A stretch of DNA of 64,000 nt from Pseudomonas typographi (GTDB lineage: Bacteria > Pseudomonadota > Gammaproteobacteria > Pseudomonadales > Pseudomonadaceae), in contig NZ_JAAOCA010000001.1 of the NCBI RefSeq assembly GCF_014694385.1, positions 1 through 64,000 of the forward strand. Reading direction: 5' to 3'. A program made the translations under genes and the position numbers. Shown here one piece after another: positions 9,605 through 58,751 of the stretch (positions within the stretch are counted from its first letter, which is position 1; each line of letters opens with the position of its first letter). The notes under the pieces are model-generated. The model was given only the letters and a program-made list of their open reading frames with translations. It made no database searches and had not been told where the DNA came from.

Positions 9605-9605
9605 G

Positions 9606-40219: not shown

Positions 40220-40296
40220 GGGCCTATAGCTCAGTTGGTTAGAGCAGAGGACTCATAATCCTTTGGTCCACGGTTCGAGTCCGTGTGGGCCCACCA
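40220..40296 (+). tRNA. tRNA with CAT anticodon, probably tRNA-Ile2 (lysidine), island target
   Basis: Complete 77-base cloverleaf with encoded CCA. The acceptor stem GGGCCTA pairs with TGGGCCC (one G-U), the D arm is AGCTCAGTTGGTTAGAGC, anticodon CAT is at 40254-40256 in the loop CTCATAA, and the T arm is GGTTCGAGTCC. CAT alone suggests tRNA-Met. However pairs C4-G69 and C5-G68 are the E. coli TilS determinants of tRNA-Ile2, which elongator tRNA-Met lacks. I favour Ile2; this is inference. Its 3' 46 bases are repeated at 52132-52177. Confidence 0.9.
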
Positions 40297-40342
40297 ACTC
40301 CAAAGCCGCGCATTGCGCGGCTTTCGTGTTTCTGGGTGGTTC
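40251..40342 (+). repeat. Direct repeat copy 1: left attachment site (attL) in tRNA 3' half
   Basis: 92 bases identical to 52132-52223. It covers the tRNA from the anticodon loop to CCA, the terminator hairpin and some flanking DNA. Similarity continues at lower identity into the integrase remnants. The repeat is exactly what a tRNA-targeting tyrosine recombinase would leave. Confidence 0.88.
40302..40324 (+). terminator. tRNA terminator hairpin (copy 1)
   Basis: AAAGCCGCGC-ATT-GCGCGGCTTT, a ten-base perfect stem six bases past the tRNA, followed by CGTGTTTCT. It is part of the repeated att block. Confidence 0.75.
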
Positions 40343-40423
40343 CTCACAATTACAGTCCTATGGTCCAAAGGTACAAAATCGGTGCAGTGCTGGTGCGCCA
40401 GTACACCTTTGGAGTCCGCTCAG

Positions 40424-40815
40424 ATGGCAACACTAGTCAAAACTCCTTGCGGCACTTGGAAGGCTTTGATCCGAAAACCGGATGGCCAACAGTAGCCAAA
40501 ACCTTTCTTACCAAGCGTGATGCGGAGGACTGGTCGCGACGTACCGAAGACGAAATGGTCAGAGGTGTGTATATCCAGCGCAGCGGATCTGAACGGCTGA
40601 CACTCGAAAATGCCCTGCGGCGGTATATACGTGAAGTCCGCCCGACCAAAAAGCCCACCACGCATAGGGCCGGGGCGACCAAAGCTCAGCAATTGACCAA
40701 GCACCTGGGTAGGTACTCTCTGGCCGCCCTGTCGTCTGAGGTGATTGCGAACTATCGCGATACCCGCCTGGGCTCACTGACCAACCGCGGCCAACCCACG
40801 AGCAACAAGCCATCC
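40424..40815 (+). pseudogene. Tyrosine-recombinase integrase remnant, copy 1
   Basis: Starts at ATG 40424 as MATLVKTPCGTWKALIRK, the Arm-type DNA-binding domain of P4-like integrases. One base is missing near 40473 (CCG-AAAACC here, CCGCAAAACC in copy 2), after which the matching reading frame continues as TGWPTVAKTF, KRDAEDWSRRTEDEMVRG and YSLAALSSEVIANYRDTR. Similarity stops near 40815, before the whole catalytic domain (R-HxxR-Y). It cannot be active. Confidence 0.85.
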
Positions 40816-40842
40816 TGCAGTCCACGTTTCACCGCTGATATA

Positions 40843-41592
40843 TCACTTCAGCACCAGCACCCCCCGCCCCATTCCGAAAAACTCTATCTCAACCCGCGCG
40901 CCCGCTGGTGCCCAGTAAAGCCCGGTCCAACTGCCGGTTGCCACCAGATCTCCGGCACGTAATGGATTGCCCTGCCCGGCTGCATGTCGGGCGAGCCATG
41001 GCAGGGAGTTCAACGGGTCGCCAAACGGATGGCTGGCGCTGCCGCTGAATTTCGTTTCGCCGTTCACCCTTAACTCGACGCGTTGCTGCGTCCAGTCAAG
41101 TCGCTGCTCAAACGTCCGTGGCGCGCCGAGAATCAATGCGCGATTGAGCTGCTGGTCGGCCAGGCGCAGCAGCGGCGCGGCCTGATCACCCGACAGCCAG
41201 CGTGTATCGCAAAGCTCGATACCCGGCATCCACGAATCGATGGCCGCATACGCCTCGACCAGATCGGCGTGCCCATCCAAGTCGCGGGACAAGCGCACGA
41301 TTACCTCGCCTTCGATGCCGAAGCCAAAGCAATAACCCGGCGGGACCTGCCACCCCGATAGTTGCACTGCGCCGGCCGGCACCGCCGCAGCGCTGATTAA
41401 CCCGCCCGGCGCGCCCCCCAGCTTCCAGGCGCGCGGCGGCGCGCTGTCAAACCAGCCAATGGCGTCGGCTACCTGACGCTGCACCTGATACGCCTCGGCT
41501 TCGCTGGCCAGGTTCAGGTCTGGCAAGGCTTGCTGACGCCCCTCACGCCAGCTGCGGATCAAGCTGGATGCCACTTGTTGTACGGCGCTCAC
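40843..41592 (-). CDS. FAH-superfamily hydratase (2-keto-4-pentenoate hydratase-like)
   Basis: About 249 residues from GTG 41592, which overlaps the upstream hydantoinase stop as GTGA; the frame is open to 41820 but that would overlap far into the hydantoinase gene. Family signs: WKLGGAPGGLISAAAV, FGIEGEVIVRL (the metal-binding acidic residues), SWMPGIELCD, and the C-terminal GNPLRAGDLVATGSW then EIEFFGMG, as in MhpD/XylJ-type hydratases. Last gene of the island 1 operon. It may hydrate or cleave a keto acid made by the upstream enzymes; substrate unknown. Confidence 0.8.
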   Translation of the reverse strand: MSAVQQVASSLIRSWREGRQQALPDLNLASEAEAYQVQRQVADAIGWFDSAPPRAWKLGGAPGGLISAAAVPAGAVQLSGWQVPPGYCFGFGIEGEVIVRLSRDLDGHADLVEAYAAIDSWMPGIELCDTRWLSGDQAAPLLRLADQQLNRALILGAPRTFEQRLDWTQQRVELRVNGETKFSGSASHPFGDPLNSLPWLARHAAGQGNPLRAGDLVATGSWTGLYWAPAGARVEIEFFGMGRGVLVLK

Positions 41593-43025
41593 AGCGGCAG
41601 CTCGGTCTTGCGCCGACGAATCTGCGCGGGTGCCGGACGCTCGCACGGCAGGAATTGACCTCGGCCAACCGCGCCGCGCGGCTCTCCATCCCAGACTACC
41701 TCGCCACGGGACAAGGTCATCGCGGGCCAGGCGCTCAGTTGCATGCCTGCGTAAGGCGTGTAGTCGACGTTGTGGTGCAGCATCTCGTTGCTGATGGGCA
41801 CGGCATGCCCTTCGTCCCAAATCACCAGGTCGGCGTCGGCACCAATCGCGATGCTGCCTTTGCGTGGGTACAGTCCGTACATCTTGGCGGCATTGGTGGA
41901 TGTCAGCGCCACAAAGCTTTGCGGGGTAATGCGCCCGGTGCGCACGCCTTCGGACCAGAGCAAGGCCATGCGGGTTTCGACCCCGGGAATGCCGTTGGCA
42001 ATCTGATCAAACGAAACCTCTTCGCCGTGGGCCTTTTTGCCGTCCGGGCCATCGAAGCGAAACGGGGCGTGATCCGAGGAAAAAATCTCAAACGAACCGT
42101 TTTCCAGCCCATCCCAGATCACTTGCTGATTGGCGGCGTCACGCGGCGGCGGGCTGCAGATGCATTTGGCACCCTCAAAACTGTCATCACAGCCCAGCGA
42201 GTCGGCGGTCAAAAACAGGTACTGGGGACACGTTTCGGCATAGACCTTCAAGCCGTGGCTCTGGGCCCAGCGGATCTGCTCGACGGCCTCCCGGCCTGAC
42301 ACATGCACGATCAGGATGGGCACGTCCACCAGCTCGGCAAAGGCGATGGCTCGGTGGGTCGCTTCACGCTCTACCAGCATTGGCCTTGAGCTGGCGTGGT
42401 AACGCGGCGCGCTCAGCCCGGCGGCGAGCAGACGCTCGGTAAGCCAGGCGATGCAGTCACTGTTCTCGGCGTGGAGCATCACCATGGCACCCTCGCGACG
42501 GGCAACCGACAAGGTTTCGAGGATCTCCCGATCACCCAGCTTGAGCGCATCGTAGGTCATGTAGATCTTGAACGAGGTGTAGCCTTCGGCGATCAACGCC
42601 GGCAACTCGTCACGCAGCACCTGTGGCGTGGGGTCGGTGACGATCAGGTGGAAGGCATAGTCGATCACCGGCTTGTTACCTGCCCGCTGATGGTAATCGT
42701 CGACCGCAGCGCGCAGGCCTTCACCTTTCTGCTGGCAGGCAAACGGGATGACCGTGGTGGTGCCCCCACAGGCTGCCGAGACAGTGCCACTGAAAAAGTC
42801 ATCCGCCATCACCGAGCCGTCGCCCGTCGGCTGGTCTAGGTGTACGTGGCTGTCGATACCGCCTGGGGTGACATGGCGGCCGGCCGCATCGATTTCCTGG
42901 TGGCCTCGCGGCAGGTCCAGGCCAAGGGCGGCGATGCGCCCGTCACGAATGCCGATGTCGCTGGTGAACATGTCCGCAGCGGTGACCACGCGGGCGTTGC
43001 GGATGACCGTATCGAAAGTTTGCAT
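41589..43025 (-). CDS. Dihydropyrimidinase / hydantoinase (cyclic amidohydrolase)
   Basis: Opens six- or five-membered cyclic imides such as dihydrouracil, hydantoins or related N-heterocycles. It has 478 residues. All binuclear zinc ligands are present: HVH in GGIDSHVHLDQP, the carboxylated lysine in SFKIYMTYDALK, His in MLHAEN and LIVHVSG, and Asp in SSDHAPF. The ATG at 43025 follows AGAGG. It lies one base after the decarboxylase-like gene stop. The real substrate could differ from pyrimidines, because neighbours are not the usual N-carbamoyl amidohydrolase. Confidence 0.9.
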   Translation of the reverse strand: MQTFDTVIRNARVVTAADMFTSDIGIRDGRIAALGLDLPRGHQEIDAAGRHVTPGGIDSHVHLDQPTGDGSVMADDFFSGTVSAACGGTTTVIPFACQQKGEGLRAAVDDYHQRAGNKPVIDYAFHLIVTDPTPQVLRDELPALIAEGYTSFKIYMTYDALKLGDREILETLSVARREGAMVMLHAENSDCIAWLTERLLAAGLSAPRYHASSRPMLVEREATHRAIAFAELVDVPILIVHVSGREAVEQIRWAQSHGLKVYAETCPQYLFLTADSLGCDDSFEGAKCICSPPPRDAANQQVIWDGLENGSFEIFSSDHAPFRFDGPDGKKAHGEEVSFDQIANGIPGVETRMALLWSEGVRTGRITPQSFVALTSTNAAKMYGLYPRKGSIAIGADADLVIWDEGHAVPISNEMLHHNVDYTPYAGMQLSAWPAMTLSRGEVVWDGEPRGAVGRGQFLPCERPAPAQIRRRKTELPL

Positions 43026-43026
43026 A

Positions 43027-43755
43027 TCAGGCCTCTTCAACCAGTAACCGACCCCAGCCGGCTAGGCCGCGCGCGTCTACGCCGGTGATTTTCAACATAT
43101 CCCAGACCACCGTGGTCACGGTGTCAAACACTGGCACGCCATGCAGGCGCTCCCAGTGCTCGGCGCGGTGCGCGGCGTGCAGGTTGGTGCAAAAGGTGCT
43201 GATGGCCTGGACTCCGGCCGCCGCCACTTTACTCACCTGGAGGTCCAGGGTGGCCTCGCTCACCTCGGCGAACGAGAAATTGTCCTGTAATGAGAGGTGG
43301 CTCTCGCAGGACGCGTCAATTCCCAGCGCTGCGTAATTGGCGATGATCTTCGCCTGCACATCCGCCAGGTACGGCGACACCAGCCCCAGGCGCTGGATAC
43401 CGAAGGCCTGCAAGGCGCGGTTCAGGGCCAAGACCGAGGTGGTGGCCGGCACGCCGGTCGCGTCGTTGATGGCCGCACATAAATCGATATCGGCGTCAAA
43501 GCCCAGCCACCCGGCCGACGTTCCGCTCCAGCCGATCACATCCACATGGGCATCGGCCAGCAAGCGCGCCGCCTCAAGAATCCGCTCGCGCTGAAACTGC
43601 CCTAGCGCATCGGCGCTGAGGGCAATCTGGGTGACGCTGAAGCGCGAAAAATGCACGCTGACTTCCGGCAGGCCGGCAACCAGCGCCTGGGTCAGCGGTT
43701 CTAGCGCGGTGTTGGAAGAAGGCGTCAATACGCCTAGGCGAATACGACGGGTCAT
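43027..43755 (-). CDS. Asp/Glu-racemase-fold enzyme, arylmalonate decarboxylase / maleate isomerase-like
   Basis: 242 residues. The opening LGVLTPSSNTALEP is the phosphate/carboxylate loop of the maleate isomerase/AMDase branch. Racemases and maleate isomerases use two cysteines. Here the first position is glycine, G78 in GWSGTSAGWLG, while the second, C189 in ISTFCTNLHAAH, is kept. Bordetella AMDase has the same pattern (G74/C188), so a cofactor-free decarboxylation is more likely than racemisation. ATGA overlap with the upstream amidohydrolase. Confidence 0.82.
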   Translation of the reverse strand: MTRRIRLGVLTPSSNTALEPLTQALVAGLPEVSVHFSRFSVTQIALSADALGQFQRERILEAARLLADAHVDVIGWSGTSAGWLGFDADIDLCAAINDATGVPATTSVLALNRALQAFGIQRLGLVSPYLADVQAKIIANYAALGIDASCESHLSLQDNFSFAEVSEATLDLQVSKVAAAGVQAISTFCTNLHAAHRAEHWERLHGVPVFDTVTTVVWDMLKITGVDARGLAGWGRLLVEEA

Positions 43756-45134
43756 GCAGGTACTCCACTGTCAAAACTCGAAGAGGGATAGGCGCGCAAG
43801 GGATTGGGGCAGCGTTGCCAGAGGGCGCGGCACACGCTGGCGGCTTCGGCGCGCACCTGCGCCTCGTCCACCCGCGTCGAGCGGCCCTGCTCGATCACTA
43901 TCTGGCCGTTGACGATGACCGTTTCGACATCGGCGCCGGTAGCGTTGTGCACCAGGCTGCCGAGGGCGTCGATGCACGGGGTGAGGTGCAACTGGCGATA
44001 GTCCAGAATCGCCAGGTCGGCCAGTTGTCCGACCTTCAGGCTGCCCAGCCGGTCGCCCCAGCCCAGCGCGGCGGCGCCGTTTGCCGTGGCCATGCGCAGC
44101 ACATCGGCGGGCTGCCAGTCATCGGCGACCTTACCCGCCTGGAGCCGACCGACCGCCAGAGCCCAGCGCATGACTTCGATCATGTCGCCGTGCATGGTGT
44201 CGGTCGCCAGGCACATCGCAGCGCCAGCTTCGAGCAGCTTGCGGGTGGGCGCGGTGCGCCCGGACATCGCATTGCCCAACGGAATATGCACCACGTGAGC
44301 ACCCGAACGGCCGATGCGCGCGATGTCGTCGTCGCTGACATGGATACAGTGGCCGGCCAGCAGACGCGCATTGAGCATGCCCTGCTCGTCGAGCAACTGC
44401 ACCGGAGTACGGCCATACTTCGCTTGCACCCAGTCCAGTTCATCCTGGCTCTGGGCGAGATGGGTGCTGATTTGCAAACCCAGCCGATGCGCCAACGCGT
44501 TGATCTGGCGCAGGAAATCCACCGAACAGGTGTCCGGCGCGTGCGCGGTCAGGTGCGCTTGGATACGCCCTTCGGCCTGCCCCGCCCAGCGCTGCACAAA
44601 GGTTTCGGCGCGTTCGAGCTGGCGTTCTCCGCGCTGACGATCAAAGCGCCGATCACCTTGCAGCACCGAGGCGAAATCGACATCGGCCAGGCGCTGGCTG
44701 GCGAACAGCCGCACACCGGTTTCGGCCATACCCGCCACGGTATCTTCGGCATGCACAAAGCTGTCTACCAACGTCGTGCAACCGGCTCGCAAGGCCTCCA
44801 GAGCGCCGAGCCGCGACAGCGCCAAGGCTTCTTGCGGGTCCAGCCAGGAAGCCTGGGGCAACCCGGGCGTATAAGACGGCGCGAAACCGCAGTCGGGCGC
44901 CACGCCCCGCACGAAGTTCAGCCCGGCGTGGTAGTGCGTATTGATGAAGCCCGGCACGATCACTCGGCCCGGCAGATGCAAATGACGGGTCGCAGGCGGC
45001 GCTGCGCCGGTGTCCGCGCCTAGGTAAGCGATGCACTGTCCGACGATACCCAGCCTGGCCGGGCGCGCTACGCCGTCGATTGGGTCCAAGGCCAGGGCAC
45101 CGGTGATCAGCAGGTCAAAAGCGCGCTGGTTCAT
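43752..45134 (-). CDS. Amidohydrolase of the Atz/Trz (deaminase/chlorohydrolase) family
   Basis: 460 residues from ATG 45134, which overlaps the SDR stop as ATGA; a start four codons earlier is possible. Metal-binding residues are all there: HYH in INTHYHAGLNFVRG, His in STHLAQSQDELD, GHCIHVSDDD and Asp in CLATDTMHGDM. Relatives deaminate or dechlorinate heterocycles such as cytosine, guanine, triazines and S-adenosylhomocysteine. Together with the hydantoinase it suggests removal of an exocyclic amino or other leaving group before ring opening. Confidence 0.85.
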   Translation of the reverse strand: MNQRAFDLLITGALALDPIDGVARPARLGIVGQCIAYLGADTGAAPPATRHLHLPGRVIVPGFINTHYHAGLNFVRGVAPDCGFAPSYTPGLPQASWLDPQEALALSRLGALEALRAGCTTLVDSFVHAEDTVAGMAETGVRLFASQRLADVDFASVLQGDRRFDRQRGERQLERAETFVQRWAGQAEGRIQAHLTAHAPDTCSVDFLRQINALAHRLGLQISTHLAQSQDELDWVQAKYGRTPVQLLDEQGMLNARLLAGHCIHVSDDDIARIGRSGAHVVHIPLGNAMSGRTAPTRKLLEAGAAMCLATDTMHGDMIEVMRWALAVGRLQAGKVADDWQPADVLRMATANGAAALGWGDRLGSLKVGQLADLAILDYRQLHLTPCIDALGSLVHNATGADVETVIVNGQIVIEQGRSTRVDEAQVRAEAASVCRALWQRCPNPLRAYPSSSFDSGVPA

Positions 45135-45928
45135 GCGGCCATCCACCCACCGTCGACCATCAAGGTGGTGCCGGTGATAAAGCTGGCGTCGGGGCTGGCC
45201 AGAAACACTACGGCTTTGGCTATATCGTCGGGGAGCCCGAGCCGAGGCCAGGGGGTGCGCCGTATCGCACGCTCCATCACCACCGGGTCGAGGGCGCGGC
45301 CGCCAGCCCCGGTCTGCACCTTGCCCGGGGCGACAGCGTTACAGATGATCTGCTGCTCGGCGTAATCGCAGGCCAACTGCCGGGTCAGATAATCAATGGC
45401 CGCCTTGCTTACACCATAGGCGAGGTCTTGCGGCGCCGCGATCATGCCGTGCTGGGACGACAGGTTGATGATGCGCCCACGCGCTTCGTCCAGGGGCGCT
45501 TGCCGGACCATTTGCCGGACCGCCGCGCGACAGCAGCGATACACCCCGCTCAGGTTGACATCGAGTACCCGGTGCCAGTCGACCTCCTCCAGTTCGAGCA
45601 ACGGCCGCGCGTGGCGGATGCAGGCGTTGTTGACCAATACATCCAAGCGTCCGAAGCGCGCGGCGGTGGTCTCGATCAAGTCGTCGACCTGGGCCGTGTC
45701 GGCCACATCTGTCTGCACGAAATAAGCCTGCTGACCTGCCTGGGTAATCAGCTCGGCGGTAGGCTGGCCGCCTTCGATCACCTCGCTGGTGACATCGGCG
45801 ACCACCACGACGGCACCCTGAGCCGCCAATTGACGGGCGATGGCGCGCCCGATGCCAGAGGCGGCGCCAGTGACGATACATACCTTGCCGGCCATCTTCA
45901 GTCCTGACGCTGCAAACGCTGGATTCAT
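45131..45928 (-). CDS. SDR family oxidoreductase (classical)
   Basis: 265 residues. The cofactor motif TGAASGIGRAIA is at the N-terminus, NNACI in the middle, the active Ser in NLSSQHGMIA, the YxxxK pair in AYGVSKAAIDYL, and the C-terminal GTTLMVDGGWMA is standard. ATG 45928 has AAGGTG upstream and overlaps the epimerase stop as ATGA. It probably oxidises or reduces an alcohol/keto group in the island 1 pathway. Confidence 0.87.
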   Translation of the reverse strand: MNPAFAASGLKMAGKVCIVTGAASGIGRAIARQLAAQGAVVVVADVTSEVIEGGQPTAELITQAGQQAYFVQTDVADTAQVDDLIETTAARFGRLDVLVNNACIRHARPLLELEEVDWHRVLDVNLSGVYRCCRAAVRQMVRQAPLDEARGRIINLSSQHGMIAAPQDLAYGVSKAAIDYLTRQLACDYAEQQIICNAVAPGKVQTGAGGRALDPVVMERAIRRTPWPRLGLPDDIAKAVVFLASPDASFITGTTLMVDGGWMAA

Positions 45929-46923
45929 TGCTGCACCTTTTGTTCGATGCCCGCAGTGCACGCGAGCCAGTGGTGAAAATCGTGGTCGGCCGCGGCCAGG
46001 TCGAAGCGCGGCACGAAGCCCGTGTCGTCGCGCAGGCGCTGGATATTCATGCTGGCGCGGTCGTAATCGGCGTACATGTCGATGCTGGCGGCTTCGCCAG
46101 GCGCTGCCAGCCGCCAGCGGAAACCGGGGTGGCGCGCTTCAAGCCGCTCGCACCACTGGCCCAGTCGCCACTCGAAACCGGCCGCCAGGTTGTAGATCGG
46201 GAAGTTCCAGTGCTCATGTTCCAACAGGCAGGCGATAGCCTGCGCGGCGTCGCGCACGTAAAGCCAATCGCGCTGGCTATCGCCGGGCAGCACAGCGGTA
46301 CCGCCTCGACGGGCCGCTTCAAGCAACTGCAACGGCGCGCTGAGCGTGTCGCGCAAACCACTGTCGGCTTCCCATGGGCCGAAGCAGGTGCCCAGCCTGC
46401 CGATCGCCAGCGCCAGGCCGCACAGACTCGCCAACCGCAGCGCCGCTTCTTCGGCCGCGCGCTTGGACATGCCGTACAGCCCTTCAGGCGCCAGTGGCGA
46501 GTTGGCCTCATCGAGCATGGCCGGCTCACGCCCGGTGGCCCCATAGACCGAACCGGAGCTGATATGCAGCAGCCGGGACACGCCACAATCGGCTGCCGTG
46601 CCGATGGCCGCCAGAACGCCGCCTACGTTTACGTCAAAGATCGCCTGGGGCGTCAGGCGCTCACGGCGCGCATCCGCCGTAATGGCCGCCAGGGTGACCA
46701 CTCGCTGCGGCCTCGACTCGCTCATCACTCGGCGCAGCGCCGTGGCGTTGCGTACGTCCCCCTGCTCCTCGCTGAAGCGGCCTGGCAACGCGGCGAATAT
46801 CGCCAAAGCCGCAGGGGGGATGGGGCTGATGTCGAAGCCCACTACATCCTCGCCCTTTGCCAACAGAAGCTCGGCCAGCGCCAGCCCGACAAAGCCACTA
46901 CAGCCGGTGATCAGGGTTTTCAT
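45925..46923 (-). CDS. NAD-dependent epimerase/dehydratase (extended SDR)
   Basis: 332 residues. GxxGxxG is in TGCSGFVGLALAE, and the catalytic tyrosine and lysine are in LYGMSKRAAEEA with SGSVYGATG before. The C-terminal domain is shorter than in sugar-nucleotide epimerases, so a small substrate such as a sugar acid or hydroxyacid is possible, as for extended SDRs in catabolic clusters. It lies between the ABC ATPase and the classical SDR with a one-base gap. Confidence 0.85.
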   Translation of the reverse strand: MKTLITGCSGFVGLALAELLLAKGEDVVGFDISPIPPAALAIFAALPGRFSEEQGDVRNATALRRVMSESRPQRVVTLAAITADARRERLTPQAIFDVNVGGVLAAIGTAADCGVSRLLHISSGSVYGATGREPAMLDEANSPLAPEGLYGMSKRAAEEAALRLASLCGLALAIGRLGTCFGPWEADSGLRDTLSAPLQLLEAARRGGTAVLPGDSQRDWLYVRDAAQAIACLLEHEHWNFPIYNLAAGFEWRLGQWCERLEARHPGFRWRLAAPGEAASIDMYADYDRASMNIQRLRDDTGFVPRFDLAAADHDFHHWLACTAGIEQKVQQ

Positions 46924-46924: not shown

Positions 46925-47695
46925 TCAGATCGCTTCCCCTACCGGCTCCGGGCGCAGCAGCGACAGGATGTGCCGTTTGTAGTCGTTGAAGACCTTGCTG
47001 GTAGGATCGCGCGGGCGCTCCAGATCAATCGGCAGCAGCTCGCGGATGCGGCCCGGCCTCGCCGACATCACCGCCACGTGGGTGCCCAGGGCGAGAGACT
47101 CGTCGATGCCGTGGGTGACGAAGACGATGGTGCTCTGGCTTTCGCGCCAGATACGAATCAACTCGGCGTGCATGTCCATCTTGGTCTGCTCGTCCAGCGC
47201 GCCGAAGGGTTCATCCATCAGGATCACTTCGGGGTTCATCAGCAGCGCCCGAGCGATACCCACCCGTTGGTTCATGCCACCTGAAAGCTCGCTGGGAAAG
47301 TGATTTTCGAAACCTTTGAGGCCGACCATTTCGATGAACTTATGCGCCTTTTCGCGGCGGATATCCTTGCCCACTCCGCGCATTTTCAGGTGGAACGCAA
47401 CGTTCTCCCACACCGGTAGCCAGGGCATCAAATTGGCCTGCTGGAACACCACCCCCCGGTCAGCGCCGGGCGCGGTCACTGGTTGACCGCCAACCGTCAC
47501 CGCGCCCTCGGTGGGATGATCGAAACCGGCAATCATATTCAGCAAGGTTGACTTGCCGCAGCCACTGGGGCCCAGCAGGCAAAGAAATTCATTGCGCGCG
47601 ACGGTCAGGCTGACATTGTCCAGGGCACGGATGCCGTTAGGCCGCTTGGGGTCATCAAATATCCGGGAAACACGGTCGATGGTAATCAGCGCCAT
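46925..47695 (-). CDS. ABC transporter ATP-binding protein (Ssu/Tau/Nrt type)
   Basis: 256 residues; energises the importer of island 1. Walker A is LLGPSGCGKSTLLNMIAG, the signature ELSGGMNQRVGIARAL, Walker B VILMDEPFGALDEQ and the switch His in VFVTHGIDE. Subfamily features match taurine, sulfonate and nitrate importers. Gap of three bases to the permease gene, so the three ABC genes are coupled. Confidence 0.92.
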   Translation of the reverse strand: MALITIDRVSRIFDDPKRPNGIRALDNVSLTVARNEFLCLLGPSGCGKSTLLNMIAGFDHPTEGAVTVGGQPVTAPGADRGVVFQQANLMPWLPVWENVAFHLKMRGVGKDIRREKAHKFIEMVGLKGFENHFPSELSGGMNQRVGIARALLMNPEVILMDEPFGALDEQTKMDMHAELIRIWRESQSTIVFVTHGIDESLALGTHVAVMSARPGRIRELLPIDLERPRDPTSKVFNDYKRHILSLLRPEPVGEAI

Positions 47696-47698: not shown

Positions 47699-48559
47699 TC
47701 AACCCTCCTTCTGCAAAGTGGAACCGCGCTGCCAGCGCAGAAGATAAGCGCCCACGCGCTTGATCACGTAGTCGCTGAGAAAACCCAACAGACCGATGCT
47801 CACCATGGAGGCGATGACGATGTCGTAGCGCAGAAAGTAATAAGAATCCCACAGCACGTAACCCACGCCACTTTTGACCGCGACCATTTCTGCGGTCACC
47901 GTGAGCATCCAGGCTGAACCAATGGCGATTCGCAGGCCGGAAAAGATGCTCGGCAGCGCGGCCGGGAAAACGATGTAGCGCAGCAGCTTGCTCGGTGTGC
48001 CGCCGGTCATGGCGCCAGCGCGCAGCAGGTTTCGATCACAGTTTTTGACGCCGTGGATGGTGCTGAGCAGCACCGGGAAAAACGAGCCCATGAATACCAG
48101 GAAGATGGCTGGCTTATCGGCGATGCCAAACCAGATGATCGCCAGTGGGATCCACGACACCGGGGGCACCGGGCGCAGTATTTGCAGCACGGGCTCGAAG
48201 AGGTTTTCCACCGTACGCGACCAGCCGATGGCCATGCCTGCGCCAATCCCCAGCACCGCTGCCAAGGCAAACCCGGAGAACACCCTAAACGAACTCGCTG
48301 CCACATCGAACAACCAGTGCCCGCTGTAGCTCTGGGTATTGCCGTCGGTGGCAAAGACCCAATCGGCCCATGCGATCAATACTTGGGACGGCGCGGGCAG
48401 CAATGCCCGGGGCAAGATCCCTGAGCGGGAGAATACCTCCCAACCTACGATCAGCAGCACCGGGACGATGCCGCGTTCGATACTCTTGTAGAGCCGCCAC
48501 ATCATGGACGGGCCCTGCTTGCGCCCGGCCTCGTGAACTTTCATGGCAGTGCTCTTCAT
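47699..48559 (-). CDS. ABC transporter permease (Ssu/Tau type)
   Basis: 286 residues and about six membrane helices, with the EAA-like coupling loop in LLRAGAMTGGTPSKLLRYIVFPAALP. The motif SWIPLAIIWFGI is characteristic of the SsuC/TauC branch. The start at 48559 lies one base after the binding-protein stop; ATG 48544 is an alternative. The open frame extends further upstream but overlaps the binding-protein gene. Confidence 0.9.
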   Translation of the reverse strand: MKSTAMKVHEAGRKQGPSMMWRLYKSIERGIVPVLLIVGWEVFSRSGILPRALLPAPSQVLIAWADWVFATDGNTQSYSGHWLFDVAASSFRVFSGFALAAVLGIGAGMAIGWSRTVENLFEPVLQILRPVPPVSWIPLAIIWFGIADKPAIFLVFMGSFFPVLLSTIHGVKNCDRNLLRAGAMTGGTPSKLLRYIVFPAALPSIFSGLRIAIGSAWMLTVTAEMVAVKSGVGYVLWDSYYFLRYDIVIASMVSIGLLGFLSDYVIKRVGAYLLRWQRGSTLQKEG

Positions 48560-48560
48560 C

Positions 48561-49586
48561 TCAATACCCCAGCTCGGTCTTCGACTTACCTGTAACGGTT
48601 TCCAGGAAGCTGTAGTCCATGTTTTTTTCCACCGCATCGCTGACATCGGTGCTGGTGTACTTGAGGTCACGCATCATTTGCGCGATAGCCACCGCCGAAG
48701 CGCGGTGCATGTCGTAATCGGGGTACAGGTTCTCGACGGCGCCGGTGGCGATTGCCTTATCCAGCCCGGTGACTTTCTGGATCGTGTCGATGAACAAGGG
48801 TTTGTCGCTGGCCATCAGGTCGTTAACCTTGACGATGGCACGTACCGTTTCTTCCACACCCTTGCGATTGTCTTCGATGACGTCCGAGCGGGTGACTATG
48901 AGGTTGGTCAACTTGCCAGCCGCCTGGTCATAGGGAAAATCGAAGAATTTGGCGGCTTTGACTTCACGGATCTGGGTGGCGAAGGGCTCTACCGACGTGA
49001 TCAACTCCACTTCTCCACGTCGCAGTGCCTGCACATGGTCGGAGGGGTTGGGGATGTTGATGAACTGCACATCCTTGTTGATATCGATGCCATGCTTGAG
49101 GAAAGCCCCACGCATATGGATGTCCTGAGCATTGCCACGGGAGGCGGCCACCCTGAACGGCTTGCCCTCGGCTTTGTATTGGCCGATGAGTTTTTTCAGG
49201 CCTTCCCAGTCACCTGCCTGAACGGGTAGATCGTTACCGACCAGAATCTGCGAACCCCCGTTGATCTGGCCGGAGATCGCGACCACATCGAACCCCTTAT
49301 CCAAGGCAGTGGCGTAGTGCAGGTAAGTCACCTGGGCAACGTCGATGCTTTTTGACAGCAGCGCGGTGAGCACATCATTGCCAGTGTTAAAAGCAATGGC
49401 TTCCAGCTTTACGCCTGTGGCGTTCTGCGGGGTCAGCGACAACGGCGTGCAATGGGCGCATTTGGCGTAGCCCAGTTTCACCGGCTTTGCCTCGTCGGCA
49501 TGGGCCATGGTCATGATACCGAGGCTCAACAGCAGTGCCGAAGCAGCGCGTTTGAGTACGTTTACAGACGAGCAAGTCACTGGCAT
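48561..49586 (-). CDS. ABC transporter substrate-binding protein (NMT1/Tau/Ssu-like)
   Basis: 341 residues. The signal peptide runs from MPVTCSSVNVLKRAASALL to MAHA-DEAKPV. The mature protein is a NrtA/TauA-type binding lobe (KLGYAKCAHCTPLSL, ALLSKSIDVAQVTY). ATG 49586 follows GGAGAAG. First gene of the operon, after a 318-base divergent region with three copies of a candidate operator. The bound compound is not evident. Confidence 0.88.
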   Translation of the reverse strand: MPVTCSSVNVLKRAASALLLSLGIMTMAHADEAKPVKLGYAKCAHCTPLSLTPQNATGVKLEAIAFNTGNDVLTALLSKSIDVAQVTYLHYATALDKGFDVVAISGQINGGSQILVGNDLPVQAGDWEGLKKLIGQYKAEGKPFRVAASRGNAQDIHMRGAFLKHGIDINKDVQFINIPNPSDHVQALRRGEVELITSVEPFATQIREVKAAKFFDFPYDQAAGKLTNLIVTRSDVIEDNRKGVEETVRAIVKVNDLMASDKPLFIDTIQKVTGLDKAIATGAVENLYPDYDMHRASAVAIAQMMRDLKYTSTDVSDAVEKNMDYSFLETVTGKSKTELGY

Positions 49587-49598
49587 CGGGCTTCTCCA

Positions 49599-49609
49599 AT
49601 TGTCACTAA
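49599..49609 (-). promoter_or_regulatory. Candidate operator 1 (ATTGTCACTAA)
   Basis: Near-palindrome 13 bases upstream of the binding-protein start. Same 11-base pattern as the next two sites; fits a TTGTnACAA-type FCD/GntR box. Confidence 0.4.
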
Positions 49610-49619
49610 AGGCTAAGGC

Positions 49620-49630
49620 TTTGTCACAAA
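49620..49630. promoter_or_regulatory. Candidate operator 2 (TTTGTCACAAA)
   Basis: Perfect 11-base palindrome TTTGT-C-ACAAA, 21 bases from operator 1, that is two helical turns. It lies in the divergent region between the operon and the GntR gene. Confidence 0.5.
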
Positions 49631-49855
49631 CTGTTTGCAACCGTTGTGCCATGTTTAGTGCCCCCGCGCATTGACACGGCGTTCATAAGGCGATGAACCG
49701 CGCTCACCCCCAGCTGCTAACGCTCGGCGCCTTACGCCAGGTGAATCGCCAGGCTGCCCAGGGATGCACTCCCACAGCTTCGCAACTGCGCAATGAAAGT
49801 GCAGCGCATCAAATAGTGACCACCGAAGGTGCAGCCTTGGACAATTCAGATTCAC

Positions 49856-49904: not shown

Positions 49905-50636
49905 GTGCTGACTGAAGAAACCCCGACTTCTCGCCCACGCAAGGTCCGCACCAGGGACCAGATACTGGGCGCCAGTGACAAGCGTGACGGCATTTATGAA
50001 CGCATCCTCAACGCAGTGATGGAACATCGACTCATCCCGGGTACCAAGCTGGTAGAAGAGAAGCTTGCGGGCGTTTTCCAAGTAAACCGCACGCGTATTC
50101 GCGAAGTGTTGGCGCGCCTGGCCTATGAAGGCATTGTCACGACCATCCCCAATCGCGGAGCCTTTATCGCCAGCCCTTCGGTGGAGGAAGCGCGGCTTAT
50201 TTTCCAAGCACGGCGAATCCTCGAGCCGGCGTTGATCCGCAGCCTTGTTGCCAAGGCAGACGGTGAGCAGTTCCAGCGGCTGCATGCGCACGTAGCCCAA
50301 GAACGCGCCGCACGGGAAGCCGCAGACACGCGCGCGGTCATACGCCTCTCCGGAGAATTCCACCTGCTGATCGCGCAGATGGTCGATAGCCCGCCACTGA
50401 TCAAGCTGATGCGTGAGCTGTCGTTACTGACCTGCCTGATCATCCTGCTGTATGACTCGCCCAACGTACCCGCCTGCCCTAATCACGAACACACCGAGGT
50501 CATCCAGGCCATGGAACAGGGGCAGGTAGACGAAGCGGTGCGCTTGATGCTCGGTCACCTGGATCATATTGAAGCGACCCTGGATCTCTCGTTGGAAGAA
50601 GACACTGAAGTGGACCTGGAACACATCTTCGGCTGA
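49905..50636 (+). CDS. GntR family transcriptional regulator (FCD domain)
   Basis: 243 residues; likely controls the divergent catabolic operon. The winged helix-turn-helix is within residues 28-95 (GIYERILNAVMEHRL, NRTRIREVLARLAYEGIV, PNRGAFIASPS). The C-terminal FCD domain has the metal-site-like region SGEFHLLIAQ and NHEHTEVIQAM. Start GTG 49905 follows CGAGGA by eight bases. Position and operators suggest a repressor relieved by the pathway substrate. Confidence 0.9.
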   Translation: MLTEETPTSRPRKVRTRDQILGASDKRDGIYERILNAVMEHRLIPGTKLVEEKLAGVFQVNRTRIREVLARLAYEGIVTTIPNRGAFIASPSVEEARLIFQARRILEPALIRSLVAKADGEQFQRLHAHVAQERAAREAADTRAVIRLSGEFHLLIAQMVDSPPLIKLMRELSLLTCLIILLYDSPNVPACPNHEHTEVIQAMEQGQVDEAVRLMLGHLDHIEATLDLSLEEDTEVDLEHIFG

Positions 50637-50686: not shown

Positions 50687-51430
50687 ATGAGACTGCTGAT
50701 CATCAACCCGAATATCTCGCAAAGCGTCACCGACCTCATCGAAGCCGAGGCTCGACGCACTGTGGCGCCTGATACGCAGATCTTGATGGCCACTGCCCAG
50801 AACGGCGTCGCCTACATCGAGACGCGGTTCGAAGCATTACTTGGCGGGCACGCGGCGGCCGTTATTGCGGGTGAACAACTGGGCAACTATGATGCGGTGA
50901 TCGTCGCCGCGTTCGGCGACCCGGGCTTGCTGGCGCTCAAGGAGGTGCTGGATGTGCCGGTGGTGGGCCTGACCGAGGCCGCGCTGATGACGGCTGCACA
51001 ACTGGGCCAGCGCATTTCCATCATCGCCATTTCTCATCGAATCACCAGTTGGTATCGCGAGTGCGTGGAGCAAAATGGCCTGCTCGGTCGTCTCGCCAGC
51101 ATCCGGCATCTAGATCGCCCGTTACGCGACGCTGGCAGCGTGCAGCAGGACCATGCCCAACGGCTACTGGAGTTAAGCCAGCTGGCGATACGGGAGGACG
51201 GCGCCGACGTGCTGATTCTCGCCGGTGCGCCGCTGGCCGGCCTGGCTCGTGGCCTGGCGGGCCAGTTGCCGGTACCGGTGGTGGACGGGGTGTCCTGCGC
51301 AGTGGCGCAGGCTCAGTTGCTGCACCGGTTGCAAGCTGGCCTGGCACGCGAAGGCAGCTTCGCGCGGCCCCCGGCGAAACCGAACCAAGGACTGCCGGCT
51401 GGCTTGCAGGCCCTGTTGACGCAGGCGTGA
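50687..51430 (+). CDS. Asp/Glu/hydantoin racemase-like protein lacking both catalytic cysteines
   Basis: 247 residues; opens MRLLIINPNISQSVTD as in HyuA-type hydantoin/allantoin racemases. The first catalytic Cys, normally in ACFGDPG, is Ala (A75 in VAAFGDPG). The second, normally in LGCAGM, is Gly (G180 in LILAGAPLAGL). A two-base racemase mechanism therefore seems impossible. It may bind substrate, or catalyse something else. Co-directional with the GntR gene, 50 bases downstream. Confidence 0.75.
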   Translation: MRLLIINPNISQSVTDLIEAEARRTVAPDTQILMATAQNGVAYIETRFEALLGGHAAAVIAGEQLGNYDAVIVAAFGDPGLLALKEVLDVPVVGLTEAALMTAAQLGQRISIIAISHRITSWYRECVEQNGLLGRLASIRHLDRPLRDAGSVQQDHAQRLLELSQLAIREDGADVLILAGAPLAGLARGLAGQLPVPVVDGVSCAVAQAQLLHRLQAGLAREGSFARPPAKPNQGLPAGLQALLTQA

Positions 51431-51436: not shown

Positions 51437-51855
51437 TCAACCCAGCAGCATGGGCGCCTCGAGGCACAGCCCCAGCGAACGCTTCATGGCTGCCGCTGCG
51501 TGCAATACGCGCGCATCCTCATAACGCGCAGCCACCACCTGCATCCCTATGGGCAGCCCGCTGCGGCCGACACCGCAAGGCAATGACAAGGCGGGCACCG
51601 CACATGTTGAATATCGGCGTGTACCCCGCATGGCCCCGAGGGCCCGCAGGCTGCCCGCCGAACGTCGCGGGGCCGAGCTGATCCGCCAGCTACGCCTCCC
51701 CAGGCGCACTAGGGCACAGCAGCAGGTCGTAGTCGCCGAAAAAACCGGCCAGCGTACTCGAGAGCTCATTGCGCAACTGCAGCAACTGGGCGGTGACTAC
51801 GCCTGGAATCGTCAAGCCGGTTTGTACCTGGGCACGGTGTAGAAGCTCAGACTTG
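51437..51855 (-). pseudogene. Amidase (GatA family) C-terminal remnant
   Basis: Matching pieces lie in different frames: LLQLRNELSSTLAGFF and DYDLLLCPSAPGEA upstream, then PALSLPCGVGRSGLPIGMQVVAARYEDARV downstream. At least two frameshifts separate them, and the catalytic Ser-Ser-Lys half is missing. The gene is therefore dead. It may have supplied the missing amide hydrolysis step of the pathway. Confidence 0.7.
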
Positions 51856-52131: not shown

Positions 52132-52223
52132 ACTCATAATCCTTTGGTCCACGGTTCGAGTCCGTGTGGGCCCACCAACTCCAAAGCCGCGCATTGCGCG
52201 GCTTTCGTGTTTCTGGGTGGTTC
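52132..52223 (+). repeat. Direct repeat copy 2: attR of island 1 and attL of island 2
   Basis: Exact copy of 40251-40342: 46 bases of the tRNA 3' half plus the terminator hairpin. The tRNA 5' half is missing here, so no second functional tRNA exists. Confidence 0.88.
52183..52205 (+). terminator. tRNA-type terminator hairpin (copy 2)
   Basis: Identical ten-base stem AAAGCCGCGC / GCGCGGCTTT inside the second repeat. It would still stop rightward transcription out of island 1. Confidence 0.65.
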
Positions 52224-52303
52224 TTCACAATTACAATCCTATGGTCCAAAGGTACAAAATCGGTACAGTGCTGGTGCGCCAGTACACCTTTGGAGTCCTT
52301 CAG

Positions 52304-52645
52304 ATCGCCACAATCGTTAAAACCCCTGCCGGCACCTGGAGGGCCGCCATCCGCAAAACCGGATGGCCTACGAACGCCAAACCTTCCGCACCAAACGCGA
52401 CGCCGAGGATTGGTCACGGCGTACCGAAGATGAAATGGTGCGCGGTGTGTATATCCAACGCAGCGGGTCTGACCGACTGACGCTCGAAAGTGCCTGCAGC
52501 GATATCTGCGCGAAGTCAGCCCGACTAAAAATCTCCCCATGCAGAAGGCTGAGGCGACCAAGGCTCAGCAATTGATTCAGCACTTGGGGAATACCCCCTC
52601 GCCGCCCTATCGTCCGAAGTTATTGCCAATTATCGCGATACCCGT
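52304..52645 (+). pseudogene. Tyrosine-recombinase integrase remnant, copy 2
   Basis: Homologous to copy 1. The start codon is ATC instead of ATG (IATIVKTPAGTWRAAIRKTGWPT). One base is lost near 52380, after which TFRTKRDAEDWSRRTEDEMVRG continues in another frame, then further shifts near 52490 and 52590 before LAALSSEVIANYRDTR. The gene stops near 52645 without catalytic domain. The lesions differ from those of copy 1. Confidence 0.85.
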
Positions 52646-53025
52646 TGTGGTTCACAAACTGCTTGAGCAATGAGTTCGATGCGTGCACCAGCCGACAATA
52701 GCTCCTTGACCACAACCGTAGCCCGACAGGGATACGGTTCATCAAAAAACTCTGCATACACCTTGTTCATCGCCGCAGCATCGCTTCGTTCAACAAGGAA
52801 TACCTGGACCTGCACGACATTGGCTAGGCTGCCGCCTGCCGCTTGCATCGCCTGGCGCAGGTTGCTCAATGCCTGGCGTGTCTGCTGCTCAATATCCCCG
52901 TCGACGAACATGCCGCTGGAAGGGTCCTTGGAAATGTGCGCCGTGAATATCTGGTGGCCGGCACGCACAGTGCCGTTCAGCGGTGCCGCGGACCGGGCGA
53001 TACCCGTATCAATGACTTCAAGCAT
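52630..53025 (-). CDS. RidA family enamine/imine deaminase
   Basis: 131 residues. Hydrolyses reactive enamines/imines formed by PLP enzymes. Contains the family core RQALSNLRQAMQAAGGSLANVVQVQVFL and the active Arg in CRATVVVKELLSAGARIELIA. The last five codons (QRVSR) and the stop come from the integrase remnant of the island end, so the C-terminus is probably newly acquired. Last gene of the island 2 operon, ten bases after the aldehyde dehydrogenase. Confidence 0.85.
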   Translation of the reverse strand: MLEVIDTGIARSAAPLNGTVRAGHQIFTAHISKDPSSGMFVDGDIEQQTRQALSNLRQAMQAAGGSLANVVQVQVFLVERSDAAAMNKVYAEFFDEPYPCRATVVVKELLSAGARIELIAQAVCEPQRVSR

Positions 53026-53034: not shown

Positions 53035-54486
53035 TCAACAAGGGAGTGGGTCAAGCTGGGTGATGAACTTGGTGTTCAGGTAGCCTGCAAAGGTTTCGCT
53101 ACCACCTTCGCTGCCATGGCCGCTGTCATTGATGCCGCCGAAGGGCGTTTCCGGCAGCGCCAGGCCAAAATGGTTGACGCTGACCATGCCCGCGCCCAGC
53201 GCACGGGCGGCATGGTGCGTGCGGGCCGCGTCGCGGCTGAACACGTAGGCGGCCAGGCCGTACGGCAGAGCGTTGGCCTGCTCGATGGCATCGTTGAACC
53301 GTTTGAACGGCGCCACCACTGCCAGCGGCCCGAATGGTTCTTCATGCAGCAGGCGGCAATGGGCGGGGGCGTCGTGCACCACCGTTGGTGCGAAGAAATG
53401 CCCCTGGCGACCCAAGCGCTCGCCACCACAGGCCAGGGTGGCGCCACATTGGCGGGCATCGTCCACCAGGCTCTGCATGGCCTCCACGCGTCGGCCGTGG
53501 CACAAGGGCCCCATCTGCACGCCTTCGTCCAGGCCGTGACCGATACGCGCCGCGGCGATAGCCGGGACAAAACGCTCCAGGAACCGCTCATACACACCGC
53601 ACTGCACAAAGAAGCGGCTGGGCGACACGCACACCTGCCCGGCATTGCGCAGCTTGTTGGCCGCCAGGGCGTCGGCGGTGGCCTCGACATCGGCGTCGTC
53701 GAACACCAGCACCGGCGCGTGCCCACCCAGTTCCAGGGTGCTGCGCTTGAGGTGCTGACCGGCCAAGGCAGCGATCTGCCGCCCTACCGGCACGGAGCCA
53801 GTGAACGACACCTTGCTGACCCGCGGGTCGCCGATCAGCGTACGGGAAATGTGCGCCGGCTCGCCCCACACTAGGTTCAGGCAACCATCGGGCAGCCCGG
53901 CCTCCTGCAGCAGCCGGGCGATGGCCATCACCGCCGATGGCGTATCTTCCGGGCCCTTGAGGATCAGGGTGCAGCCGGCCCCCAGGGCCGCGCAGACCTT
54001 GCGCAAGGCCTGGCTGAACGGGAAGTTCCAAGGTGTGAACGCTGCGCATACCCCCACCGGTTCCAGCACCACGCTTTGCTGCACGCGCAGATCACGGGCG
54101 GGGATCACCCGGCCATACAGGCGGCGGCACTCCTCAGCGTGCCATTGAGCATGTTCGGCGGCAAAGCGCACTTCGCCCAGGGCCTCGGCCAAGGGCTTGC
54201 CCTGATCCAAGGTCAGGTGCCGGGCGATGGTCTCGGCCTGTTCGCCGATCAGGACGGCGAAACGCTGCAGAGTCTGCGCGCGCACCATGGGTGAGCTCAG
54301 GCGCCAGCTGCCAAAGGCGCGGTAGGCGGCAGCCAGGGCCGCCTCTAGGTCACGGTCGTCGGCGTGGGGCAGTTCGCCCAACTGCGCGCCGGTACCGGGG
54401 TCGTATACCGGCTGCCCGGCACGGCCGTCGTGCAACCACTGGCCGTCAATGAACAGCGCCAGCGGCGGATAGGCAGGGGCATTCAT
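53035..54486 (-). CDS. NAD(P)-dependent aldehyde dehydrogenase (succinate-semialdehyde type)
   Basis: 483 residues. Oxidises an aldehyde, plausibly the product of the neighbouring aminotransferase. Active Cys is in NAGQVCVSPSRFFV, the catalytic Glu in STLELGGHAPVLVF, the cofactor loop in SFTGSVPVGRQIA, and FTPWNFPFSQ is present. Its sequence is closest to GabD/SSADH-like enzymes. The ATG at 54486 shares a base with the aminotransferase stop; GTG 54489 is an alternative start. Confidence 0.9.
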   Translation of the reverse strand: MNAPAYPPLALFIDGQWLHDGRAGQPVYDPGTGAQLGELPHADDRDLEAALAAAYRAFGSWRLSSPMVRAQTLQRFAVLIGEQAETIARHLTLDQGKPLAEALGEVRFAAEHAQWHAEECRRLYGRVIPARDLRVQQSVVLEPVGVCAAFTPWNFPFSQALRKVCAALGAGCTLILKGPEDTPSAVMAIARLLQEAGLPDGCLNLVWGEPAHISRTLIGDPRVSKVSFTGSVPVGRQIAALAGQHLKRSTLELGGHAPVLVFDDADVEATADALAANKLRNAGQVCVSPSRFFVQCGVYERFLERFVPAIAAARIGHGLDEGVQMGPLCHGRRVEAMQSLVDDARQCGATLACGGERLGRQGHFFAPTVVHDAPAHCRLLHEEPFGPLAVVAPFKRFNDAIEQANALPYGLAAYVFSRDAARTHHAARALGAGMVSVNHFGLALPETPFGGINDSGHGSEGGSETFAGYLNTKFITQLDPLPC

Positions 54487-55868: not shown

Positions 55869-55893
55869 GATGGGTTCCAGTTGCGAAGAGGGG

Positions 55894-56955: not shown

Positions 56956-56972
56956 GACGGTACTCCGGTAAG

Positions 56973-57770
56973 TCAACGGGCAAGGTGGCCGGCGGCGCTG
57001 CCGCTGGAGCGCCGGGTCAGGCGCACGGCCAGCGGCAGCAGCAGGGCGGCCAGTACCAGGATGAACAGGAACGAGGAGGCGGCAGAGATCACCGGGTCTG
57101 CCTCCATGCGGAAGCTGTTGAACATCTGTCGCGGCAGGGTCGCGGTGTCGCGGCCGGAGATGAACACGGCGATCACTGTTTCGTCGAACGACTGGATGAA
57201 CGCGAACAACCCCGCCACCAGCACCGCCGGGCGCAGCACCGGCAGGGTCACCAGCCAGAAGGTCGTTAGCGCCGGCGCGCCCAGGCTGTGGGCGGCATGC
57301 TCCAGGTTGGCGTCGAAGCTGCGCAGGGCAGCCGTTAGTATCAGCGTCGCCACTGGGATGCCCAAGCAGGTGTGGACGATGATGATGCCGGTGAAGCTCT
57401 GGGTCAGGTGCAGGCGGCCGAAGTACAGGTAGTACCCCAGCGCCATAACGATCTGCGGCACGATCATCGGCAGCATCAGCAGCAAGTTCAGCGCCGTGCG
57501 GCCGATGAAGTAATGGCGCACCAGGGCGAACGAGGCCGGGATCGCCAGCGCGAGGGTCAGCAGCGTGGTCGCCAGGCCGATGTACAGGCTGTTGAACAGC
57601 GGCTGCATCCAATTTATGTCACTGAAGAAGTGCTGGTAGTTGCCCCACCAGTAGGCGCTGGGCGGGAACTGCAGCGAGGCATTGGCGCTGAACGACATGG
57701 GCACCACGATGAACAGCGGCACGGCGATGAACAGCGCGATCAGCACGGCAAGGGTCTTGAGGCTTTTCAT
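56973..57770 (-). CDS. ABC transporter permease (PotC/PotI type)
   Basis: 265 residues, about six helices. The EAA loop is in HAAHSLGAPALTTFWLVTLPVL, and SFDETVIAVFISG is typical for PotC. ATG 57770 lies two bases after the PotB-type stop with GGAG nine bases upstream; another in-frame start 15 bases earlier overlaps the previous gene. Confidence 0.9.
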   Translation of the reverse strand: MKSLKTLAVLIALFIAVPLFIVVPMSFSANASLQFPPSAYWWGNYQHFFSDINWMQPLFNSLYIGLATTLLTLALAIPASFALVRHYFIGRTALNLLLMLPMIVPQIVMALGYYLYFGRLHLTQSFTGIIIVHTCLGIPVATLILTAALRSFDANLEHAAHSLGAPALTTFWLVTLPVLRPAVLVAGLFAFIQSFDETVIAVFISGRDTATLPRQMFNSFRMEADPVISAASSFLFILVLAALLLPLAVRLTRRSSGSAAGHLAR

Positions 57771-57772
57771 GA

Positions 57773-58675: not shown

Positions 58676-58751
58676 GTCGGTCCCCCGGACAACGGGTGAG
58701 TGGAGTGTGCCGGCCCCGCCATGGGGTGCCGGCCTCAGCGGGTCGCGGTGC

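Follow-up and report, generated by a model that had tools for sequence, protein, structure and literature searches.

Arylmalonate decarboxylase (AMDase) serves as a biocatalyst, and in the accessible portions of two reports its natural role is described as unknown (PMC4996985; PMC4517146). The survey of Maimanakos et al., as far as its accessible part goes, supplies the residues and motifs by which membership in the AMDase family is judged and gives mandelate-racemase/muconate-lactonising genes and tripartite tricarboxylate transporter genes as common neighbours (PMC4996985); in the accessible part of PMC4517146 the leaving carboxylate is thought to occupy a pocket without hydrogen bonds. Maleate isomerase, another relative, usually works by a covalent cysteine route: PDB entry 2xed is titled as a C194S mutant carrying a covalent succinylcysteine, so the first cysteine is the nucleophile. 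The window analysed here, by which we mean the whole stretch of 64,000 nucleotides from Pseudomonas typographi (contig NZ_JAAOCA010000001.1), encodes a protein related to both enzymes, for which a sequence-only reading had proposed an AMDase-like active site within a tight operon of ring-opening enzymes.

According to the list of open reading frames and their translations, the gene is an intact frame on the minus strand (43755..43027) coding for 242 residues, and the plus strand across 43027-43755 is interrupted by stops. In phmmer comparisons the protein matches Bordetella AMDase (3dg9) with an E-value of 6.3e-15 and maleate isomerase with 5.6e-11, it passes the Pfam Amdase domain model (69 bits, cut-off 25.9), and its AF2 model reaches a pLDDT of 94.3. 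The phmmer alignment with 3dg9 sets 'wsGTSagw' opposite 'lmGTSlsf' and 'tfCtnl' opposite 'lsCggl', which puts Gly78 at the position of AMDase Gly74 and Cys189 at that of AMDase Cys188. Profile-profile alignments of 34 window-family sequences against three maleate isomerases and two motif-bearing AMDases agree, with G78 opposite the AMDase glycine and the first maleate-isomerase cysteine, and C189 opposite the AMDase cysteine and the second maleate-isomerase cysteine. A single MAFFT alignment introduced a gap into the maleate-isomerase rows at this point and brought Ala opposite G78; two other alignments put Cys there. The loop P12-S13-S14-N15-T16, G78 and C189 are invariant in all 42 aligned sequences, the window protein included, and likewise in 34/34 once plasmid records are left out, which excludes a chance substitution; across the aligned window family Cys189, Y129, N15, N159, G78 and T79 are all invariant positions. 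In a larger set G78 is found in 94/95 and C189 in 95/95 sequences, and we prefer the 42-sequence count since the larger set held the window gene repeatedly together with the paralogues L001 and L003. The earlier proposals that the first racemase cysteine is replaced by Gly78 and the second retained as Cys189, that the PSSNT loop is kept, and that this is the G74/C188 pattern of Bordetella AMDase thus hold.

The proposed AMDase-like active site stands in part. To its credit are the Gly/Cys pattern, the Amdase domain and three of the four dioxyanion-hole residues, AMDase T75, S76 and Y126 being kept as T79, S80 and Y129 (S80 is Ala in 5/34 sequences); P14 is also kept, as P12. Against it, the protein scores 68.8 bits with the NCBIfam AMDase equivalog NF052327 and so misses the cut-off of 225 by a wide margin, whereas a positive control with the published motifs, L161 from Aminobacter, passes with 303.6 bits. 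No match over the cut-off of this model occurred among 299 sampled genomes of the phylum, and the AMDase comparison sequences were taken from plasmid records (L161, L162). Several defining residues differ: P15 is replaced by S13, the dioxyanion residue G189 by T190 and V156 by Asn159, each in 34/34 sequences, and M159 is replaced by Phe162; the counterparts of L40, V43 and Y48 vary between alignments. Both flanking motifs, LMGTSLSF and ILLSCGGL, are absent, the window protein having GWSGTSAGW and ISTFCTNL where the control has LMGTSLSF and VLISCGGL. Since the AMDase pocket for the leaving carboxylate is thought, in the accessible part of PMC4517146, to offer no hydrogen bonds, Asn159 at the place of V156 argues against decarboxylation of the AMDase type. 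On the score, P15, V156, G189 and the two motifs we reject the strict AMDase label. Nor does the Gly/Cys pattern by itself denote a malonate decarboxylase: a third group, which the tree places on the side of EutA without firm support, has it too, and so does the printed sequence of 5lfd, the crystallised construct of a Pseudomonas fluorescens allantoin racemase, where Gly takes the first position and Cys the second.

The remaining pocket resembles that of maleate isomerase, with whose residues Asn15, Arg38, Tyr129, Asn159 and Cys189 align. In maleate isomerase, Asn, Tyr and Asn have carboxylate-binding roles. The label of maleate isomerase is nevertheless rejected, as the position of the nucleophilic cysteine is occupied by G78; the two-cysteine signature of the Asp/Glu racemases, with Cys on both sides, is likewise absent. 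The same genome also encodes a NicE-type maleate isomerase that retains the two cysteines (L003, 386.4 bits with 4fq7). EutA of ectoine utilisation provides the best-scoring NCBIfam model (TIGR02990), and this assignment was also discarded, at 76.1 bits against a cut-off of 318.

For the phylogenetic placement we used a main tree of 32 rows, comprising ten members of the window family, four maleate isomerases, three AMDases (one partial), twelve EutA-like proteins and, as a second Gly/Cys group, three further proteins. All families come out as clades of their own, that of the window family with a support of 100/99, and the phylogeny proposed by the sequence-only reading places it with neither AMDase nor maleate isomerase. 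The clear grouping with maleate isomerases that would have spoken against that reading was not obtained (support 42/0). A grouping with AMDase is not rejected (AU p 0.509), nor is one with the second Gly/Cys group (AU p 0.325) or of all Gly/Cys groups together (p 0.328). The pattern is spread over three separate clades; the second group that has it lies on the EutA side with 81/92, under the starred level of support. By these trees a single origin of the pattern (AU p 0.328) is neither shown nor rejected, and convergence is not claimed as proven. An earlier tree of 54 rows, which included a single long AMDase row, set the window family beside AMDase with 90/78; this value was not starred, and the tree comes with a long-branch warning. 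The genome itself holds a second Gly/Cys paralogue, L001 on contig C128 (motifs MASS, GGTS and CTN), which the tree sets on the side of EutA and apart from the window family.

The gene lies in an operon on the minus strand (Table 1), which runs from upstream to downstream through an NMT1-like binding protein, a permease, an ATPase, an epimerase-type oxidoreductase, a short-chain dehydrogenase, an SsnA/ATZ-type amidohydrolase, the one-cysteine enzyme, a dihydropyrimidinase and an FAA-hydrolase-family protein; a GntR regulator and an allantoin-racemase homologue are divergently encoded on the plus strand. The start of the one-cysteine gene overlaps the stop of the upstream amidohydrolase gene (ATGA). 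Downstream, the dihydropyrimidinase frame overlaps the end of the one-cysteine gene by 14 bases if read from TTG; an internal ATG near 43025, one base past that end, is the likelier start. The dihydropyrimidinase keeps the HxH, Lys, His, His and Asp motifs when aligned with 1yny, residues that we take to be the metal ligands. A second dihydropyrimidinase elsewhere in the genome also exceeds the TIGR02033 cut-off (542.9 bits), so the operon copy need not be the housekeeping one. The best NCBIfam match of the amidohydrolase is N-ethylammeline chlorohydrolase, at 255.5 bits under a cut-off of 609, and the protein is perhaps a deaminase of an amino-heterocycle.

Table 1. Features of the operon and of the presumed island that surrounds it, with positions in the window.
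Feature	Position	Strand	Evidence
Left copy of direct repeat, left edge of presumed island	40251..40417	+	last 46 nt of tRNA-Met (40220-40296) and following sequence
FAA-hydrolase-family protein, nearest 2-keto-4-pentenoate hydratases	40843..41820	-	Pfam/NCBIfam scans
Dihydropyrimidinase / D-hydantoinase	41589..43040 (TTG start as listed)	-	TIGR02033 541.7 bits over 393.25; NF009941 803.6 over 647
One-cysteine AMDase/maleate-isomerase-related enzyme (G78/C189, PSSNT, WSGTS, CTN), 242 aa	43027..43755	-	alignments, Pfam, NCBIfam, AF2
TRZ/ATZ/SsnA-type amidohydrolase	43752..45146	-	Amidohydro_1 184.1 bits; PDB matches
Short-chain dehydrogenase	45131..45961	-	Pfam/NCBIfam scans
NAD-dependent epimerase/dehydratase-family oxidoreductase	45925..46923	-	Pfam/NCBIfam scans
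ABC transporter ATPase (Sao/Tau/nitrate type by best matches, none over cut-off)	46925..47695	-	family scans
ABC transporter permease (Sao/Tau/Ssu type by best matches, none over cut-off)	47699..48670	-	family scan
NMT1-like substrate-binding protein	48561..49652	-	Pfam/NCBIfam scans
GntR/FCD regulator, divergent	49905..50636	+	Pfam
Allantoin/hydantoin-racemase homologue without both catalytic cysteines (A75, G180)	50687..51430	+	Asp_Glu_race 137.8 bits; 3qvj alignment
Right copy of direct repeat, right edge of presumed island	52132..52298	+	3 mismatches in 167; tRNA part identical

The divergent racemase homologue (AF2 model pLDDT 90.0) carries Ala75 and Gly180 opposite the two cysteines of 3qvj. 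Both residues are invariant, in 20/20 sequences and in 39/39 of a larger set, and the relatives from Methylobacterium and Defluviimonas have the same pair. As both cysteines are missing, racemisation by the usual two-cysteine route appears unlikely for this protein. Just beyond it, at 51437-51769, an amidase C-terminus remnant is suspected, the Pfam Amidase model giving 24.0 bits over 37 residues against a cut-off of 27; a tblastn search of the 64,000-nt window with an amidase of Stutzerimonas gave no match, and a remnant beside the racemase homologue remains a suspicion.

The whole operon is bracketed by 167-nt direct repeats with a start-to-start spacing of 11,881 bases, a layout that presumably reflects an island integrated at a tRNA gene. 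Related sequence, 78-83% alike, runs on past each copy of the repeat. The frame at 40285-40962 beside the tRNA gene looks integrase-like by eye, and as Pfam gives no family for it we do not claim an integrase there. On the right, a RidA-family gene (52630-53025, by Pfam) and, at 53035-60843, a separate group of genes recognised by eye as those of an aldehyde dehydrogenase, a class III aminotransferase, a polyamine-type ABC transporter and a dipeptidase-like protein adjoin the island.

To see how far the setting recurs, a genome collection was scanned; it yielded 109 relatives, of which the best 80 were kept and inspected with flanks of up to 8 kb (full flanks in 63/80), and all counts over 80 below refer to these best 80 of 109. 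A dihydropyrimidinase of at least 50% identity lies within the flanks of 46/80 loci, which, together with the ATGA overlap, bears out the tight operon with ring-opening enzymes that the sequence-only reading had described. The racemase homologue occurs in 36/80 loci, and every one of these 36 also has the dihydropyrimidinase. A 2PAJ-type deaminase is found in 20/80, a UbiD gene in 21/80 and a xanthine-permease-type carrier also in 21/80 loci, and dihydropyrimidinase and 2PAJ-type deaminase never appear together (0/80). Transporters by locus are of the ABC (11), MFS (24), TRAP (9) and xanthine-permease (21) types among the best 80 of 109. The other enzymes of the window are rarer, at 10/80 each for the SsnA-type amidohydrolase (at least 40% identity), the epimerase with the dehydrogenase, and the FAA-family protein, so that the full gene set of the window is one of several versions; in 8/80 loci every one of the counted partners (hydrolase, deaminase, UbiD, amidase) is absent. 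On a tree of 87 rows the partner labels require 11 changes, against a mean of 32.9 for shuffled labels, by a quick method.

On annotated plasmids of Klebsiella, Azospirillum, Paracoccus, Paraburkholderia, Methylobacterium and Defluviimonas the gene adjoins a dihydropyrimidinase gene or lies close to one. Other amidohydrolases or an amidase adjoin it on plasmids of Leptolyngbya, Rhizobium and Caballeronia; on a Burkholderia glumae plasmid it is accompanied by an MFS carrier, the ring hydrolase being absent beside it, and in Sinorhizobium it stands beside genes of an amidase and of an FAA-family protein, with dihydropyrimidinase not among its neighbours. One further record is unannotated. A BhcA-like aminotransferase lies near the gene in 4/80 of the best 80 of 109 loci, a weak hint at glyoxylate; the two plasmid copies scanned, with 425.5 and 455.1, fall short of the cut-off of 650. 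Within the genus sample the gene occurs in 4/298 genomes at E 1e-20, the window's own genome counted in, and our search of the open-access literature found no description of this gene set.

A separate type of locus in Burkholderia and Caballeronia (L028, L033, L044 and others; L097 at 4235-12783) combines the one-cysteine gene with a carrier, a 2PAJ-type deaminase, UbiD and two Amidohydro_2 genes, and in L097 UbiX and CobW are annotated as well. Two family members from beyond the main clade of this type, L027 and L049, also have the UbiD/Amidohydro_2 module at their side, immediately behind the gene in the case of L049. The single xanthine-permease-type carrier that was scanned passes the pbuX model (475.9 over 414.15). 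PDB entry 2PAJ, named 'putative cytosine/guanine deaminase', is presumably an isoxanthopterin deaminase, and on this basis loci of this type perhaps encode a pteridine route. Because the amidohydrolase of the window operon is a different one, we do not extend the idea to it. The accessible part of a paper on a Variovorax pterin deaminase (PMC9513972) mentions neither hydantoin nor a racemase nor a gene cluster.

Within the Asp/Glu racemase superfamily, the window protein most likely belongs to a new, distinct and uncharacterised subfamily of the AMDase/maleate-isomerase branch, made up of one-cysteine, cofactor-free enzymes that act on ring-opened ureido or amido acids. The dihydropyrimidinase/hydantoinase, a metal-dependent cyclic-amide hydrolase, would open a nitrogen ring, and the one-cysteine enzyme probably acts just after it. 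The small acid so released, with a carboxylate and an amide or ureide, could be held by Asn15, Arg38, Tyr129 and Asn159, the T79-S80 loop and Y129 may stabilise an enediolate-like carbanion, and Cys189 alone would serve as acid/base and deliver the proton to carbon. For the reaction itself we tentatively, and narrowly, put first a decarboxylative protonation of a polar malonate-type acid with a ureido or amido substituent, an explanation to which we give somewhat less than even chances. Against it count Asn159 at the place of V156, the Gly/Cys pattern in the printed 5lfd sequence, the lower recurrence of the other window enzymes, the 8/80 loci (best 80 of 109) in which the counted partners are absent, and the Burkholderia glumae plasmid. 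It is also quite possible that the enzyme is a one-cysteine isomerase, tautomerase or racemase, in which Cys189 would protonate (and deprotonate) a ring-opened ene-ureide or ureido acid at its alpha-carbon, with a change of geometry or configuration and with CO2 retained. For this speak the match of N15, R38, Y129, N159 and C189 with maleate isomerase, a predicted structure somewhat nearer to that enzyme, and the occurrence of Gly first and Cys second in the printed sequence of the allantoin racemase 5lfd. A ring hydrolase can moreover release a cis-configured product, so a later isomerase makes chemical sense; maleate isomerase itself acts after ring opening in the nicotinate pathway. However, the nucleophilic cysteine of maleate isomerase is a glycine here, and the T79-S80 loop is AMDase-like where maleate isomerase has CLV. 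This loop favours decarboxylation and the maleate-isomerase-like Asn159 isomerisation or racemisation; decarboxylation and proton-shift isomerisation are about equally likely. As substrates, 5-carboxy-dihydrouracil or 2-(ureidomethyl)malonate, ureidomalonate from hydantoin-5-carboxylate, thiamine pyrimidine, 8-oxoguanine and allantoin-like hydantoins were considered and not adopted.

The other explanations carry far less weight. It is improbable that the protein is non-catalytic and serves the dihydropyrimidinase or the cysteine-less racemase homologue as a binding or structural partner: the latter, a frequent neighbour, has also lost its catalytic cysteines, so non-canonical members do cluster here, but the invariance of Cys189, Y129, N15, N159, G78 and T79 would be unusual in a non-catalytic protein, and some of the best 80 of 109 loci carry the gene and neither partner. 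That the protein is a true arylmalonate decarboxylase (EC 4.1.1.76) with aryl or alkenyl malonates as its substrates is very improbable; the G74/C188 pattern, the Amdase domain and a sister placement that the AU analysis does not reject are outweighed by the equivalog score, far below both cut-off and control, and by the deviations at P15, V156, G189 and both motifs. The operon genes scanned, furthermore, matched none of the common neighbours named in the accessible part of the AMDase survey, neither mandelate-racemase/muconate-lactonising genes nor those of tripartite tricarboxylate transporters (PMC4996985). A maleate isomerase (EC 5.2.1.1) of the usual covalent cysteine route is scarcely credible despite the closest fold and the same pocket residues, for the nucleophile position is Gly in 42/42 window-family sequences and the genome already has its two-cysteine NicE-type enzyme.

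In its widest form our proposal is speculative and rather doubtful: a new family of cofactor-free carbon-acid enzymes, in which the cysteine pattern and the oxyanion loop are those of AMDase and the pocket is that of maleate isomerase, may work with a hydantoinase and a cysteine-less allantoin-racemase homologue in an undescribed route that degrades cyclic ureides or pteridine-like rings. If true, this would be the first physiological setting for chemistry of the AMDase type. The tight and recurrent genomic setting of a related family makes the question of the AMDase role testable, because the ring hydrolase encoded alongside ought to produce the substrate. The operon is thus a lead to the natural role of such enzymes, whose relatives, in the best 80 of 109 loci, often stand beside enzymes that open nitrogen rings; a further puzzle in this operon is the conserved partner that has lost its two racemase cysteines, and the family cautions against reading 'Gly/Cys' as 'malonate decarboxylase'.

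Set beside the known systems, the predicted structure is nearest to the maleate isomerases of Nocardia (2xed, Z 32.6, rmsd 1.9 over 237 residues; 2xec, Z 32.6) and Pseudomonas putida S16 (4fq5, Z 32.2; 4fq7, Z 31.5), with which the protein shares the fold, the PSSNT loop and the positions of Arg38, Tyr129, Asn159 and Cys189; it differs from them in Gly78 at the nucleophilic cysteine, in GTS for CLV and CTN for CVQ, and in an identity of 23-24%. The AMDases of Bordetella bronchiseptica rank after these (3ixl, Z 30.5, rmsd 2.0 over 232 residues; 3dg9, Z 30.1). They have the same fold, Gly/Cys pair and T75/S76/Y126, and are set apart by P15, V156, G189, both flanking motifs, the gene neighbours and an identity of 23-24% in the structural alignment. 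EutA belongs to the same superfamily and offers the best-scoring model, whose cut-off is far from reached by the window protein, and the 11 rows above that cut-off have Cys at both positions without PSSNT. The 2PAJ-type loci of Burkholderia, Paraburkholderia and Caballeronia contain the same one-cysteine enzyme, after the deaminase gene in L097 and L028; unlike the window they are without dihydropyrimidinase and have a xanthine-permease-family carrier, UbiD and two Amidohydro_2 genes. The divergent racemase homologue, finally, has the fold of the allantoin racemases of Klebsiella pneumoniae (3qvj, Z 32.8) and P. fluorescens (AllR; 5lfd, 5lg5), with Z 31.7-32.8 and 32-34% identity across these entries, and where 3qvj has Cys at both sites and 5lfd shows only the second, it has Ala75 and Gly180.
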